From positions 1-26,066 of the IMG/VR virus record IMGVR_UViG_3300042691_020912: a DNA stretch of 26,066 nucleotides; one strand, given 5' to 3'. How positions within the stretch are numbered: the stretch's first letter is position 1; each line of letters starts with the position of its first letter. This stretch comes from a virus. Positions 3,604 to 9,875 of this stretch are shown here, piece by piece. The position numbers were made by a program, and so were the translations under genes. The notes under the pieces are model-generated. The model was given only the letters and a program-made list of their open reading frames with translations. It was not told the DNA's origin and searched no databases.

Positions 3604-4761
3604 ATGAAAGCAAGAGTTGGTGGCATTCTAAAAGGATTTAGCGTTCATCGAGCAGATGGAACAGTGGAGCGTTATGATCAGCATCTTCATAACGTAATGA
3701 ACGACGACATTCTTACTGATGCTGCTCTATTTGCATCTGCTATAGGTGTGGGAGGAGCTACATATCGTTGGGATACTCCTTTTGCTATTGTTCCTTGTCA
3801 GCTTAAGGTAAAAGAACAACTCGTAGGTACTTATTCTCAATCTGGGAACATAATTAGCAGAGTTAGCGGTGAAGATCTTACTGCAGGTACTTATTTTTGG
3901 GAATCAATTGGTACTGCAATGATGGCATACGGAGGTGGAACTGGTTCTCAGAGTGTTCATGGAACTGCAACAGTCCCTGCAGGAACAGATAATCTTTGGA
4001 TCATTCGCACTTCGTTTTCTCCGAACTCCGGATTTTTGCAACCTATTGAAAGCGGGACTAATACAGCTGCAACTAGAGTAACTACGTACCTAGGAGCTGG
4101 AGTGTTTTCTTCAAAGAACACAACACTCATTGTGTCAAGAATTTACACAGGAACATACACAATCAAAAGTATTTCATTCACTGGTCCTAACACAATTCAG
4201 TGTAATACATTTGATCTTCCTTCACCAATCGTTCTTAACCCTGGAGATCGGATCGTCGTAGGTATTGGTGACTTTGAAGTAACATACACACTTGATGCAT
4301 ATCAGCCTCGAGCATTAGGAACGTGTCCTATCACTGGCATTACTACTTCTTGTGTAGTTCAGCGTTGCTTTAGATTTAACTCGTCAGTAGAAAATCATTG
4401 CAATGACACTCAGAGTGCTACACGAATTTGGTTACTTGATGACGCAAACAAGTTGACGCTTCCTCCAGATGTTGGTTTGATTAGTGCAATCATCTCACCC
4501 CCAACAACAACTCTTCTAACAATTACGTCAACAGGCAGCTCTATTGCACCTTCACGAACTAATCAGTTCATTCGAGAAAACAAAGGCGTTGGAACAATTT
4601 CATCAACACAAACAGGAGTGAAACAAGTCGTGTGGGGAAACACAACAATGGTGTTTGGTATTCTTGAATTTGATACACCACAAACTCTTGAAGCAGGAAA
4701 GGTTTTAACTATTGGAGGCAGACTTTGGATAGAGCAAGATTTAGATCTTTCTACTCCGTAA
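3604..4761 (+). CDS. virion structural protein, paralogue A of a tandem pair
   Basis: This 385-residue protein begins MKARVGGILKGFSVHRADG and ends with VVWGNTTMVFGILEFDTPQ followed by a short tail. It is clearly homologous along its length to the next gene. Shared features are the start (VGGILKGF.hHR..G..ERYD..LHN), a central FDLPSPIVLNPGD..GDFEV segment, Y-Q-P followed by NCPI/TCPI-type residues, and the closing GILEFDTPQ. The middle is rich in Ser, Thr and Gly, typical of extracellular beta proteins. No signal peptide, membrane segment or catalytic motif is visible. The setting between fibre genes suggests a tail-fibre or baseplate-associated structural protein. The start follows the previous stop by three bases and lacks a Shine-Dalgarno. 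Confidence 0.72.
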   Translation: MKARVGGILKGFSVHRADGTVERYDQHLHNVMNDDILTDAALFASAIGVGGATYRWDTPFAIVPCQLKVKEQLVGTYSQSGNIISRVSGEDLTAGTYFWESIGTAMMAYGGGTGSQSVHGTATVPAGTDNLWIIRTSFSPNSGFLQPIESGTNTAATRVTTYLGAGVFSSKNTTLIVSRIYTGTYTIKSISFTGPNTIQCNTFDLPSPIVLNPGDRIVVGIGDFEVTYTLDAYQPRALGTCPITGITTSCVVQRCFRFNSSVENHCNDTQSATRIWLLDDANKLTLPPDVGLISAIISPPTTTLLTITSTGSSIAPSRTNQFIRENKGVGTISSTQTGVKQVVWGNTTMVFGILEFDTPQTLEAGKVLTIGGRLWIEQDLDLSTP

Positions 4762-4767
4762 GCTTAA

Positions 4768-4775
4768 GATAAATA
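4768..4775 (+). promoter_or_regulatory. T4-type late promoter box (GATAAATA)
   Basis: GATAAATA sits in the 19-nt gap between the two paralogous genes, with 5 nt between the box and the ATG at 4781. T4-like geometry would place transcription start on the A of the start codon. It would allow paralogue B to be expressed independently of paralogue A. Confidence 0.6.
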
Positions 4776-4780
4776 CAAGT

Positions 4781-5965
4781 ATGAACGCACGTGTAGGAGG
4801 TATTCTCAAAGGCTTTACGATCCATCGAAAGAATGGGTCTATTGAACGTTATGACAAGCCATTGCATAACTATATCACCTTTGGTGGTATCGCAACTCTT
4901 TTACAATATGCAGGGAACGCTTCTTCTGGCACTATTTCTCCATTTAGTTCGCTAACTCTTCGGATTTACAATCAGCAGTTGCCAATCAAATTGACTGGCA
5001 GCTATGACATAGTAAATGCGACTGGTCAAGCTATCGGAGTAGGGACTGGACCTTGGAATCGCATTCGTATCAACTCTGGAACTTCGTTTAATGCATCTAC
5101 AATTTTATTGACTAGCACAGGTGATTATGCATTCGTAACAGCGACCTCAAGTAACATTCGAGTTCTTTCAGTAGATTCCCTTGACATTATTGGAAAAGAC
5201 CTTTATGTTCTAAGAAGTTCATTTGACGTTCCATCAGTTCAGAGCGGAACTTCGCCTACAAGAACTGTTACTTATTCTGCAGGTGTTTTGCGTTCAGTAA
5301 ATAATCAGATTGCTACATTAACTTCAACTACGAATAACACAATTTATTCAATTGGATTTACTTCGGCCACTGAATCAGTAGGTCACATCTTCGACCTTGA
5401 GACTCCAGTAGTACTTGGGATTGGAGATGTACTTTCTGTGGGTGTAGAAGATTTTGAAGTTCTAATTACATATGATTCATATCAACCAAAAACATTCACT
5501 GCAGGGAACTGTCCTATTGCTGGATTTCCTACTGCAACTGGTCGATATCAAAGAATGTTTCCTGTGATTAGTAATACTTCTCCACCTACAATTGAATCAG
5601 GGGGATCAGGAGCTGTGATTTATCTAGTTCCGAATGGATCGCATATTGCGATTCCTGACTTACAGTACCCATCTTCTACTCCGACGACTAGTGCAGCATT
5701 TGCGACTAAGGAAACAATCACTTGTGTAACTGAAGTACAGGGTAACACACAAACAAATAACATTGAGGAGTTTCGTAAATGGTTTGGTCAAGTAGTTACT
5801 GGAGGAGCAAATATCAAACAAATCGCCTGGGGAACAACAACATTTGATAGAATTCTAGGAATCCTAGAATTTGATACTCCACAAAACATCCCTGCAGGAA
5901 AGATTCTTTCAATTACACAGATGGCCAAAATTGTTCCAGATTTTGTCATTCCAACAATTCCATAA
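4781..5965 (+). CDS. virion structural protein, paralogue B of a tandem pair
   Basis: This 394-residue protein begins MNARVGGILKGFTIHRKNG and is a diverged duplicate of the preceding gene. N- and C-terminal segments are best conserved: KQIAWGTTTF, GILEFDTPQ and a final KIL/KVL segment. The Ser/Thr-rich middle differs much more and needs several gaps to align. Such conserved ends with a variable middle suit a protein anchored in the tail and exposed to the host, but this is inference. It has its own late box 5 nt upstream. The C-terminus is slightly extended relative to A (VPDFVIPTIP). Confidence 0.72.
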   Translation: MNARVGGILKGFTIHRKNGSIERYDKPLHNYITFGGIATLLQYAGNASSGTISPFSSLTLRIYNQQLPIKLTGSYDIVNATGQAIGVGTGPWNRIRINSGTSFNASTILLTSTGDYAFVTATSSNIRVLSVDSLDIIGKDLYVLRSSFDVPSVQSGTSPTRTVTYSAGVLRSVNNQIATLTSTTNNTIYSIGFTSATESVGHIFDLETPVVLGIGDVLSVGVEDFEVLITYDSYQPKTFTAGNCPIAGFPTATGRYQRMFPVISNTSPPTIESGGSGAVIYLVPNGSHIAIPDLQYPSSTPTTSAAFATKETITCVTEVQGNTQTNNIEEFRKWFGQVVTGGANIKQIAWGTTTFDRILGILEFDTPQNIPAGKILSITQMAKIVPDFVIPTIP

Positions 5966-5968
5966 TTT

Positions 5969-6727
5969 ATGCCTGAAGAAGCATCACTCGTTATCACTAA
6001 CTCGGGCATTCCAAATGCAGTGCCTGAACCTGGATTTATTGCCTTTGGCGAACTTACGCTGAACTGGGCTGACTCCATCATTTACTTCAAAAATAAAGAA
6101 GGAGCGATTCAACAGATTTCTGTTGGCGGTCTAACTCCTATTCAGTTAACTGAAAGACTTCCTGTAAATGAAGGACCTTGGTTTACATTTCCATTTCCTG
6201 GCACTCCTGCAAATACTGCATACATTCCAGTTAAGAAAGCCGATGGAGATTTGCCTCGTTTGAAAATTGGTCTTATTGCAGATCCAGGTCCAAACTATGT
6301 TCTTATTGAAGATGATGTCGACATCACGGTCGGTGTTGTTGCAGGAACTACAATGAACGAAATCATTGCTCTAATTCGCAATGATGAAGATGCAAATGCT
6401 TTAATTCGTATCTTCAATTCACCAGGAAGTGATGGAACTGGCGTCGTGACAGGTTCTCTCCCGCTTGTTGCAGCTGCGTCATTCAATAACGTAAATAACA
6501 AAATTGGTGATAGAGCTGAATATGTAGGCCAAGTTTTATTCGTTGATCATTCGGACACAGTCGTTGGATTCCAACAAATTTCTGAATGGGTCGCTGCAAC
6601 AATCAATCCAACAGTGTGGATTCCAAGAACACCTGGTATCATTTGGAATCGCGATACTAGCTTATGGGAAATTCAATATTCACAGGATGGTATCTTCCAA
6701 TCATCAGTTCTTCCAGATCAAATCTAA
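5969..6727 (+). CDS. fibre-base protein with Mtd-like N-terminal domain
   Basis: This gene encodes 252 residues. Residues 5-52 (LVITNSG..GELTLNWADSIIYF) align with the N-terminal domain of the hexad fibre at 1562, which is the small anchoring domain found at the start of many phage fibres. The remainder (residues 60-252) is a mixed domain with no repeats and no motif I recognise. It ends in a Trp-rich stretch (IIWNRDTSLWEIQYS). It may be an adaptor that carries the long YadA-like fibre encoded immediately downstream (1-nt gap, TAATATG junction). Start is the first ATG after the previous stop; no Shine-Dalgarno is present. Confidence 0.72.
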   Translation: MPEEASLVITNSGIPNAVPEPGFIAFGELTLNWADSIIYFKNKEGAIQQISVGGLTPIQLTERLPVNEGPWFTFPFPGTPANTAYIPVKKADGDLPRLKIGLIADPGPNYVLIEDDVDITVGVVAGTTMNEIIALIRNDEDANALIRIFNSPGSDGTGVVTGSLPLVAAASFNNVNNKIGDRAEYVGQVLFVDHSDTVVGFQQISEWVAATINPTVWIPRTPGIIWNRDTSLWEIQYSQDGIFQSSVLPDQI

Positions 6728-6728
6728 T

Positions 6729-8786
6729 ATGAAAAAGACATTACTCATTTTACTTGCATGTGCAAGTTCACTTTTCGCTCAGACGAAATCAGTATCTCCA
6801 ACTGGAGGTGGACTAAACGCTACCGATAATCCTGCATTCCGAACCGCACTTGGTGGAACAACTGTAGGTCAGAATCTATTCACACTGACGAATCCGTCCG
6901 CAATTACTTTCCCAAGAATCAATGCAGACAACACTGTAAGCTCATTATCTGCAACAGATTTCAGAACAGCAATTGGTGCATCTGCTTCATTCACGACGTC
7001 AGCTGGACTTGCAGGTCTGCTCTCTGATGAGACAGGCACCGGTTCATTTGTTCTTGCATCAAGTCCTACACTAACAACACCGGTTATTAACCTGGGCACA
7101 AATGCTACAGGTGATATCTATTACAGATCAGCAGGTGGTTTGTTTACGCGTCTACCAATTGGGTCTGCAGGACAGGTTCTTTCTGTGGCAGGTGGCATTC
7201 CTTCTTGGGCAACTGATGCAGGAGGTGATGTTACTCTTGCGGGTAGTCAAATTCTAACGAACAAAACTCTTAGCACAGGGACAGTATTTTCATCTCCACC
7301 AACAATGACTCTTGGGTCTGATGCAACTGGAGACGTTTACTATCGTAATGCAGGTGGTCTTCTGACAAGACTCCCGATTGGGTCTGACGGTCAGTTCCTT
7401 TCTATTGCTGCAGGTATTCCGACATGGGCATCTGGAGCTGCGCCTGATGTAACATTGAGTAATTCAGTTACACTTACGAACAAGACTCTTGGATCTGGCA
7501 CAGTTATTACTGCAGCTACAATGACTCTTGGCTCAGACGCAACTGGTGATATCTATTACCGTAATGCAGGCGGACTCCTTACTCGCCTTGGACCAGGTTC
7601 GGATGGTCAAGTTCTAACTCTTGCTTCAGGCATTCCTTCGTGGGCAGCTGCAGGTGGCTCTTTAACAAATTGGACCGAATCAGTTAATACTGCTGCTCCT
7701 AACGCGACCGTTCCTGCGGTCAGATTCTTAGCAACGAATGCTGCAACAAATGTTGACGCTGTGATTAGCCCAAAGGGCACAGGTGCAATTCTTGCTCAAG
7801 TACCTGATAACACCACAACAGGAGGTAATAAGCGCGGTGCAAATGCAGTTGATCTGCAGACATCAAGAACTTTAGCAACGCAAGTGGCGTCTGGTGCAAC
7901 CTCACCGACTGTCGTAGGCGGAAATGGAAATACTGCCTCAGGGTCAAACTCATCAACAGTTGTTGGTGGTTCAGGTAATACTGCATCTGCTAACTTGTCT
8001 TCTGTTTTGGGTGGCAGCAGCAATACTGCATCTGGAACTTGGGCAACTGTTGTGGGTGGCAGCAGCAATACTGCTTCAGGAACAAATTCTTTTGTGACAG
8101 GATCAGCAAACTCAGCAGCCGACTATGCATTTTCTTCAGGTAGATCAAATGCTGCATCAGGCGCATATTCTGCTCTACCTGGTGGACAAAACAATACATC
8201 ATCAGGAAACTATTCTGCAATTCTTGCTGGATATCTTAACACAGCTACAGCTGACTATGCCACAGTTATCGGTGGAAATGACTCTGATGCAAATGGAGTT
8301 TACTCGGTTGTTAGCGGTTTAGAAGCTGATGCGCGTTCACTTCGTGGAGCTGTTGTAAGAAGCATTGGAAAATTTCAAAACACGGGAGATAATCAAACAA
8401 TGAACTTCATCGTTCGCCGACAAACCACAGATGATACTCCTGCAGTATTAACCTCAGACGGTTCTGCTCCTGCAGCAACGACACGTATCGCTATTACAAC
8501 TAACAGTGCATATCGTTTCCGTGGAATGCTAGTTGGTCGAACAAACGGTGGTGTGAATAAAACTGTTGCATTCTCTGGTGCAATCAAGCAGGATGCAAAC
8601 GCTGCGTCAACCGCGATGATTGGTTCAGTTACATATGATACTCTTGAAGATGCTGGTGCTGCTACCTGGGTTGTTTCTGTAGGAGCAAATACGACAGATG
8701 GTTCTCTTGACATCACCGTGACAGGAGCTGCAGCAACGACAATTCGTTGGTCAGCTACAGTCGAGACTATTGCCGTCAAGTACTGA
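6729..8786 (+). CDS. large YadA-like tail fibre with N-terminal signal-like peptide
   Basis: I chose the ATG at 6729, one base after the previous stop. A longer frame is open from 6543 but only overlaps the upstream gene. The 685-residue product starts with a classic secretion-like segment (MKKTLLILLACASSLFAQ) that also holds a possible lipobox, LLAC. Three copies of a 40-residue module (LGSDATGDIYYRNAGG..GQVLS..GIPSWA) lie at 122, 195 and 267, about 72 residues apart. Residues 393-537 are YadA-head-type repeats (VVGG..NTASG). The C-terminal domain from 540 (FIVRRQTTDDTPAVLT..IRWSATVET) resembles the tip of fibres in many Gram-negative phages and prophages. A trimeric, receptor-binding fibre is likely. 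The signal-like N-terminus is odd for a phage virion protein. Confidence 0.85.
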   Translation: MKKTLLILLACASSLFAQTKSVSPTGGGLNATDNPAFRTALGGTTVGQNLFTLTNPSAITFPRINADNTVSSLSATDFRTAIGASASFTTSAGLAGLLSDETGTGSFVLASSPTLTTPVINLGTNATGDIYYRSAGGLFTRLPIGSAGQVLSVAGGIPSWATDAGGDVTLAGSQILTNKTLSTGTVFSSPPTMTLGSDATGDVYYRNAGGLLTRLPIGSDGQFLSIAAGIPTWASGAAPDVTLSNSVTLTNKTLGSGTVITAATMTLGSDATGDIYYRNAGGLLTRLGPGSDGQVLTLASGIPSWAAAGGSLTNWTESVNTAAPNATVPAVRFLATNAATNVDAVISPKGTGAILAQVPDNTTTGGNKRGANAVDLQTSRTLATQVASGATSPTVVGGNGNTASGSNSSTVVGGSGNTASANLSSVLGGSSNTASGTWATVVGGSSNTASGTNSFVTGSANSAADYAFSSGRSNAASGAYSALPGGQNNTSSGNYSAILAGYLNTATADYATVIGGNDSDANGVYSVVSGLEADARSLRGAVVRSIGKFQNTGDNQTMNFIVRRQTTDDTPAVLTSDGSAPAATTRIAITTNSAYRFRGMLVGRTNGGVNKTVAFSGAIKQDANAASTAMIGSVTYDTLEDAGAATWVVSVGANTTDGSLDITVTGAAATTIRWSATVETIAVKY
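7092..7646 (+). repeat. three ~72-residue fibre shaft modules
   Basis: Three tandem in-frame copies start at residues 122, 195 and 267 of the YadA-like fibre. Each has the block L-G-(S/T)-(D/N)-A-T-G-D-(I/V)-Y-Y-R-(N/S)-A-G-G, then G-Q-(V/F)-L, then G-I-P-(S/T)-W-A, with a linker rich in LTNKTL. Copies 2 and 3 are closest to each other. The G-Q-V-L..P-S-W module is common in phage fibres. Confidence 0.85.
7905..8339 (+). repeat. YadA-head-like beta-roll repeats
   Basis: Residues 393-537 of the fibre contain about nine units of roughly 14-18 residues built on VVGG-x-x-N-T-A-S-G. Similar units form the left-handed parallel beta-roll head of trimeric autotransporter adhesins. A direct 21-base recurrence of the GGTGGCAGCAGCAATACTGC type is visible near 8010 and 8056, indicating relatively recent local duplication. 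Confidence 0.8.
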
Positions 8787-8790
8787 TTTG

Positions 8791-8798
8791 AATAAATA
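8791..8798 (+). promoter_or_regulatory. T4-type late promoter box (AATAAATA) with a true leader
   Basis: AATAAATA ends 29 nt before the ATG at 8828. Unlike most boxes here it should give a leader of roughly 24 nt. That leader is C/A-rich (CTCCAACCAACTAAACACCC) with no Shine-Dalgarno. It shares the flank TTTGAATAAATA with the box at 9364. Confidence 0.65.
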
Positions 8799-9380: not shown

Positions 9381-9875
9381 ATGCCACATCGAATTCTTCA
9401 ATACGCTATCAGTAATTTCCCTGTGAATGTGACATCCCTTGTCGAGGGAACAATGCTTTCTATCCTTGCGATATGGAAAGGAACTGCAACGATCATCTCT
9501 GATGATGCCTGGGAAAAGCTTACAGGTCCTCACGGTCTTGTATTTGCTTTAATCATTGGCATCATTATCATTTGGTCTAAGTCAGTTCGTGATGACGCAG
9601 CACGTGAGCGCAGACACAAGGAAACAATCAAGACTCAACAAGAACACTTTCAGAAGCTAATTGATCTAAACGAAAAGACTGCAAATGACTTGAAGATTCT
9701 AACTGTTGCTTCAACTAAAGCTCAGATGTCTGCGACAAATGCAATCATTTCGATGGACCATAATATCATTCGGCTTACGAATGAGTTATCAGATCAAGCA
9801 AGAATCTCTGTAAGACGTAAGGCGAAAAAGGCAGCAGCTCGCGAAGCGAGAGAAGCTGCTGAAACAGAATCATAA
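9381..9875 (+). CDS. membrane-anchored coiled-coil protein, holin-like layout
   Basis: This gene encodes 164 residues. A strong transmembrane segment lies at residues 51-66 (LVFALIIGIIIIWSKS). A weaker hydrophobic stretch precedes it at 20-40 (VEGTMLSILAIWKGTATII). The segment after the membrane span is highly charged (RDDAARERRHKETIKTQQEH), then a long helix with heptad character, and a basic/acidic Ala-rich tail (RRKAKKAAAREAREAAE). One span followed by a charged helical tail is the layout of BhlA/UviB-type holins and of some membrane-tethered structural proteins. It is the only clear membrane protein in the window. It sits among fibre genes rather than beside an endolysin, so the holin call is tentative. 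It has its own late box and no Shine-Dalgarno. Confidence 0.7.
   Translation: MPHRILQYAISNFPVNVTSLVEGTMLSILAIWKGTATIISDDAWEKLTGPHGLVFALIIGIIIIWSKSVRDDAARERRHKETIKTQQEHFQKLIDLNEKTANDLKILTVASTKAQMSATNAIISMDHNIIRLTNELSDQARISVRRKAKKAAAREAREAAETES

Follow-up and report, generated by a model that had tools for sequence, protein, structure and literature searches.

The gene P0001, at positions 6729-8786 of a 26-kb virus record, encodes a tail fibre that starts like a bacterial secretory protein. In the textbook view the virions of tailed phages are assembled wholly in the cytoplasm, and the question raised by this locus is what a secretion signal does on such a fibre. In the following, the window is the whole stretch of 26,066 nucleotides that was analysed, SP stands for signal peptide, SP-fibre for a fibre carrying one, and L numbers denote loci.

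Gene start, predicted signal peptide and fibre modules of P0001

The gene and its parts are as follows.

6729-8786, + strand: SP-bearing tail-fibre gene P0001, 685 amino acids, with homologues among phage fibres.
6729-6779, + strand: predicted Sec signal peptide, residues 1-17 (MKKTLLILLACASSLFA), with cleavage before Gln18, from a heuristic SP scan.
6807-6980, + strand: common fibre shaft module (NATDNPAFRTALG...INADN...SATDFRTAIG), residues 27-84, found inside viral fibres that mostly have no SP.
7056-7661, + strand: three 'LGSDATGDIYYRNAGGLLTRL...GQVLTVASGIPSWA' shaft repeats, residues about 110-311, repeat family D1, from homologue matches.
7878-8309, + strand: YadA-like left-handed beta-roll repeats, residues about 384-527, from Pfam LbR_Ice_bind and an AlphaFold2 strand ladder.
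8400-8783, + strand: C-terminal beta domain, presumed receptor-binding tip, residues about 558-685, also on the non-SP fibres of L003-L008 and on Cyanophage Cy-LDV1 gp10.

The N-terminus reads MKKTLLILLACASSLFAQTKSVSPTGGG in the ORF translation. We take the ATG at 6729 as the natural start because the preceding gene has its stop at 6727 and no further in-frame start codon occurs before 7140. Residues 1-17 consist of a basic n-region, a hydrophobic core without charge and a small-residue cleavage site, after which Gln follows. All SP calls were made with our own heuristic, which passes 39 of 4120 shuffled fibre N-termini; it assigned the start of P0001 to the SPase I type, with a small residue at -1. 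The Sec-signal-like start described in the original prediction was therefore confirmed. The lipoprotein (SPase II) start suggested there from the LLAC motif was rejected, since Cys11 comes too early in the protein and the heuristic assigned the SPase I type.

The SP is fused directly onto fibre shaft modules, at a shaft-module boundary. Residues 27-84 are a shuffled module, and the three repeats at about 110-311 are of the GDIYYRNAGG type. Given this shuffling and the shortness of the SP, little could be learnt from a tree of the first 60 residues, which the original prediction had proposed as a check. The beta-roll, with a repeat length of about 15 residues, matches LbR_Ice_bind (PF21300) at 1.7e-7, above the cut-off of that family. 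The AlphaFold2 model, which is of low confidence overall (mean pLDDT 48), has a regular strand ladder at 384-457, and the top Foldseek match of this low-confidence model was the tail fibre gp42 of Klebsiella phage Kp9 (E 9e-6). YadA-head repeats had been proposed for the body of the fibre. A beta-roll at 384-527 is indeed present; Pfam gave LbR_Ice_bind only, with no YadA_head match in P0001 and no C-terminal YadA membrane anchor at E <= 0.1. P0001 resembles the YadA-type trimeric autotransporter adhesins in combining an SP with a YadA-like beta-roll head, and differs from them in having neither of these two Pfam matches.

Fibres of L003-L008 share the C-terminal half of P0001, beta-roll and tip, at 40-45% identity, and gp10 of Cyanophage Cy-LDV1 at about 31%; unlike P0001, all of these have N-termini without a signal peptide. 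No known virion anchor was recognised in P0001, and the N-terminal motif of the neighbouring window fibres is absent from it.

Predicted late transcription unit and host

The window encodes a terminase (phrog_2), a sheath (phrog_23) and further T4-like structural genes according to PHROGs, and P0001 lies in the late structural/tail module, among fibre, terminase, sheath and portal genes. The terminase has its nearest named relative in phage C48C1 (59%, Kyanoviridae), followed by Synechococcus myoviruses at about 48%. The surroundings of P0001 are listed below.

4769-4775, + strand: late promoter core of T4 type, ATAAATA, with 6 nt from its last base to ATG 4781; the genes at 4781, 5969 and 6729 are its predicted targets.
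4781-5965, + strand: first gene of the late unit of P0001, a paralogue of gene 3604-4761.
5969-6727, + strand: upstream fibre gene without SP, with a weak PHROG tail-fibre match at its N-terminus.
8792-8798, + strand: ATAAATA, the next late promoter core, directly 3' of the SP-fibre gene.

The T4 late-promoter core ATAAATA occurs 10 times in the window, always on the coding strand, where 3.7 copies are expected over both strands. Nine of the 10 are wholly or almost wholly non-coding, and non-coding DNA makes up 2.6% of the window. With the cores at 4769 and 8792 on either side of it, P0001 shares one unit with the genes at 4781 and 5969, and late expression is accordingly predicted for it. A late unit shared with two fibre genes would fit a virion or lysis-stage role better than early exclusion. 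None of the 6 other fibre-region genes of the window has an SP.

An SD-like (Shine-Dalgarno) motif was found for 1 of 21 window genes, compared with a fraction of 0.14 in sampled Bacteroidota phages and 0.58 in C48C1. Few SD motifs together with Gln at +1 point weakly to a host in the Bacteroidota, or in another lineage that uses Shine-Dalgarno weakly. Against genome contigs P0001 gave 7 weak matches only, so that no prophage host can be named.

Signal peptides on fibres of other phages

The viral scan with P0001 gave 80 loci. The best relative, in L002, has an SP-like start too (MKIRLVYIITATLCGCVSAQ), though under the threshold of the heuristic, and there is an overlap between this start and the stop of the tail-type gene before it. 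Fibre-like ORFs were defined as those of at least 250 amino acids with G+A+S+T+N of at least 48%, and compositionally ordinary ORFs were used as control. SPs were found in 22 of 206 fibre-like ORFs versus 3 of 333 other long ORFs (L002-L160; 15 loci; Fisher P = 2e-7), and the false positives of the heuristic on a T4 gp15-like family raise the control count, not the fibre count.

SP-fibres often stand in tandem, directly 3' of tape-measure or baseplate genes, and several loci have an SP on every fibre-like ORF or on almost every one. Their PHROG neighbours are baseplate (L011, L060), tape measure (L040, L062), structural protein (L057, L062, L125) and major head protein (L020, L150). Many unrelated phages have SPs on N-termini of the phage type. 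Among the close T4-like relatives examined, none has an SP-fibre upstream of the neck genes. With tblastn, four SP-fibres of viral contigs found no close SP homologue in cultured phages, and the structural neighbour in L062 found no match there either.

Two of these loci deserve a separate remark. The fibre module of L148 (3246-16226) has six SP-like starts, and one of its fibres has a standard-looking motif (DLSKGHTFTDGDTVHASDLNTLV) right after the SP. In L002 (9614-11985) the SP-fibre ends the tail module and is directly followed by host-like genes (a prepilin-type protein and another), a layout similar to that where a Verrucomicrobia-like prophage ends.

The signals of SP-fibres look functional, judged from their sequence. 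When cleavage sites were placed by hand, Gln was at +1 in 32 of 44. In an unbiased test, [AGS]Q was present at residues 14-27 of 19/31 SP versus 47/330 non-SP fibre-like ORFs (P = 2e-8). Gln at +1 is the 'Q rule' of Bacteroidetes SPase I substrates, which has been noted for phages of P. gingivalis (PMC10367356). The genes concerned, in Nixviridae prophages, are likewise phage genes whose SPase I signal peptides bare a Gln; they were described not as tail fibres but as being of unknown function and expected to be modifiers of the host envelope (PMC10367356).

At least 4 cysteines were found in 18 of 31 SP-fibres compared with 43 of 216 non-SP fibres (P = 2e-5). This richness is as expected for folding under oxidising conditions; P0001 itself has no Cys after its signal. 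An even Cys count was considered as a disulphide signature and rejected, with 19/24 even in SP-fibres and 68/108 likewise in non-SP fibres, and abundance alone was used. When mature SP-fibres were compared by BLAST with Met-start N-termini of non-SP fibres, a clear match was obtained for L040 only, where the mature N-terminus of one SP-fibre corresponds to the Met-start N-terminus of the adjacent non-SP ORF (53%, E = 1e-4); those of L062, L148, L057 and L060 resemble standard fibre starts by eye only.

Cultured phages of Cellulophaga offer the closest parallel. In phage phi10:1 the tail genes are followed by five SP genes in a row, gp091-gp095. For gp091-gp094 GenBank gives the status structural, 'based on experimental MS/MS proteomics analysis', as it does for all four SP-bearing proteins gp101-gp104 of phi19:1; this virion status is that of GenBank record notes, and secreted protein may have co-purified with the virions. 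Similar SP tail genes are present in phi19:3, phi46:3, Nekkels_1 and Ingeline_1, so that three ICTV families are covered overall. These phages share with P0001 the Sec SP, the Gln at +1 and the position of the tail proteins in the tail module. They differ from the window in having unrelated tail types and bodies (pectate lyases), and in having SP genes in tandem rather than one among non-SP fibres. A near-identical SP, MKHTxxIVLFFILSLGLNAQ, is found in several phages in front of bodies that differ from one another; two such genes are neighbours in phi46:3. Conversely, phi17:2 and the crAss-like phi14:2 carry the pectate-lyase domain of phi10:1 gp093 behind N-termini lacking an SP, and there too it is virion-borne by MS/MS. 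The same lyase thus occurs with or without SP, and SP and non-SP N-termini are therefore interchangeable modules on one enzyme in those phages. No SP was found on fibre genes of the Bacteroidota phages 11b, phi38:1, crAss001, B124-14 and P12024S.

SP-bearing tail fibres as a class were not found described among open-licence papers, which contain passing mentions only. The lyases of Ingeline and Nekkels are stated, without comment, to carry 'signaling peptides' (PMC8776804), and a missing signal peptide has been counted in favour of a phage origin for receptor-type proteins of phages (PMC6199706).

Predicted export and proposed virion attachment

Because of its SP grammar, the Gln at +1, the recurrence of SP-fibres and their tandem runs, P0001 is well supported as a predicted exported protein of the Sec/SPase I type, as had been proposed from its N-terminus. 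The accompanying view that virion fibres lack such signals did not stand, given the eight SP-bearing tail proteins of phi10:1 and phi19:1 recorded as structural by MS/MS in GenBank; because of these records, 'exported' and 'virion fibre' are not alternatives.

Our preferred explanation, held tentatively and at close to even probability, is that P0001 is a late fibre that is exported by Sec, cleaved, and joined to virions at or after lysis. The protein would be made late in infection, exported through SecYEG and cut by SPase I after Ala17, baring Gln18; it would then fold and trimerise in the periplasm, and the mature fibre would dock onto tails once lysis ruptures the envelope. The fibre may also mask receptors on the dying cell and on debris while it is outside the cytoplasm. 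Fibres of T4 and tailspikes of P22 are able to join particles in vitro. We infer virion attachment of P0001 itself from the recorded presence of SP-bearing tail proteins in virions of other phages; on this reading the opening of the envelope would let the mature fibre join particles. Late export would account economically for the SP with its grammar and for the late operon.

The main rival, which we regard as unlikely while taking it seriously, is an exported decoy or shield, i.e. a non-virion protein that blocks receptors on the producer cell or debris against superinfection or re-adsorption. Exported phage receptor blockers exist, for example T5 Llp; Llp and phi80 Cor go to the envelope as predicted for P0001, and are small where P0001 is a large late fibre. 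That P0001 is the sole SP protein amid several ordinary window fibres, that close T4-like relatives have no SP-fibre, and that a receptor-binding-type C-terminus is shared yet no known virion anchor is present, all agree with a decoy. Its place in a late operon with fibre genes argues against this and weakens the block to superinfection suggested in the original prediction. The recorded structural status of the phi10:1 and phi19:1 proteins is a further objection, and loci with SPs on all or nearly all fibre-like ORFs would keep few or no fibres for the virion.

It is improbable that the hydrophobic N-terminus stays uncleaved and is not used by Sec, being buried in the tail or serving as a membrane-active anchor of a fibre assembled in the cytoplasm. 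Tailed-phage assembly is otherwise cytoplasmic, and the SP-bearing proteins recorded in virions are compatible with such an anchor; a structural helix needs neither the conserved cleavage-site grammar nor the Gln at +1, and the Cys richness of mature SP-fibres also speaks against it.

We give slightly less credence still to the capture of a host adhesin, or an accidental fusion, in which the 5' end of a host secreted-protein gene was placed on fibre DNA and the product, if working, is a surface adhesin. Secreted proteins with a P0001-type shaft or beta-roll are present in Bacteroidota host genomes (L161 at 5874, L271 at 1066), and the join at a shaft-module boundary suits this origin. The capture of a host 5' end had been raised before, and what remains of it is a possible source of the SP, the body being made of phage fibre modules. 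P0001 has no outer-membrane anchor domain, and because SP-fibres recur in many unrelated phages, stand in tandem runs and have sequence-similar SP modules common to several Cellulophaga phage families, they appear to be kept by selection. A mis-called start or assembly chimaera is very improbable and already largely refuted, for although the window is a metagenomic fragment and P0001 has no Shine-Dalgarno motif, the start is bracketed at 6727 and 7140, 20 of the 21 window genes likewise have no SD-like motif, and like architecture occurs in cultured phage genomes.

Beyond this locus we consider it possible, rather than probable, that such fibres form an undescribed and widespread class in tailed phages from several bacterial phyla, made as Sec precursors, folded in the periplasm and docked at burst. 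Were this class real, oxidative folding and processing would take place in the periplasm, attachment to fibre-less particles only at cell burst, and the last step of virion assembly outside the cytoplasm. If many environmental phage fibres are Sec substrates, assembly order, disulphide use, debris shielding and host-range evolution have to be rethought for those phages, and a pipeline that annotates SP-fibres as host adhesins would be in error. A direct test of the idea is possible in the cultured Cellulophaga phages.

Some further observations concern the window and its T4-like relatives. In L185 (1618-2421), one such relative, a non-fibre SP protein (MKKLTLIAMLMAASAFA followed by AEQLNEVRVVANRNAP...) is encoded upstream of the neck genes. 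In the window a membrane protein, possibly a holin or a tail-linked membrane protein, lies between fibre and neck genes (9381-9875), and short hydrophobic proteins (MEPEKSMLKEFINGGWLIPLIGAAAM...) occupy the equivalent position in T4-like relatives. The fibre at 281-1552 has tandem 'AVTEAKIGTGAVTESKIG' repeats of about 12 residues each, a common fibre motif (phrog_892). The ATAAATA cores at 268, 4769, 9365, 13878, 16819 and 24016, and those in L171-L250, stop just 6-10 nt short of a start codon; in the T4-like relatives this distance peaks at exactly 6 nt, with 87 of 169 within 6-10. Such spacing predicts leaderless late mRNAs, whereas in the SD-rich C48C1 the distance is 21-38 nt instead.
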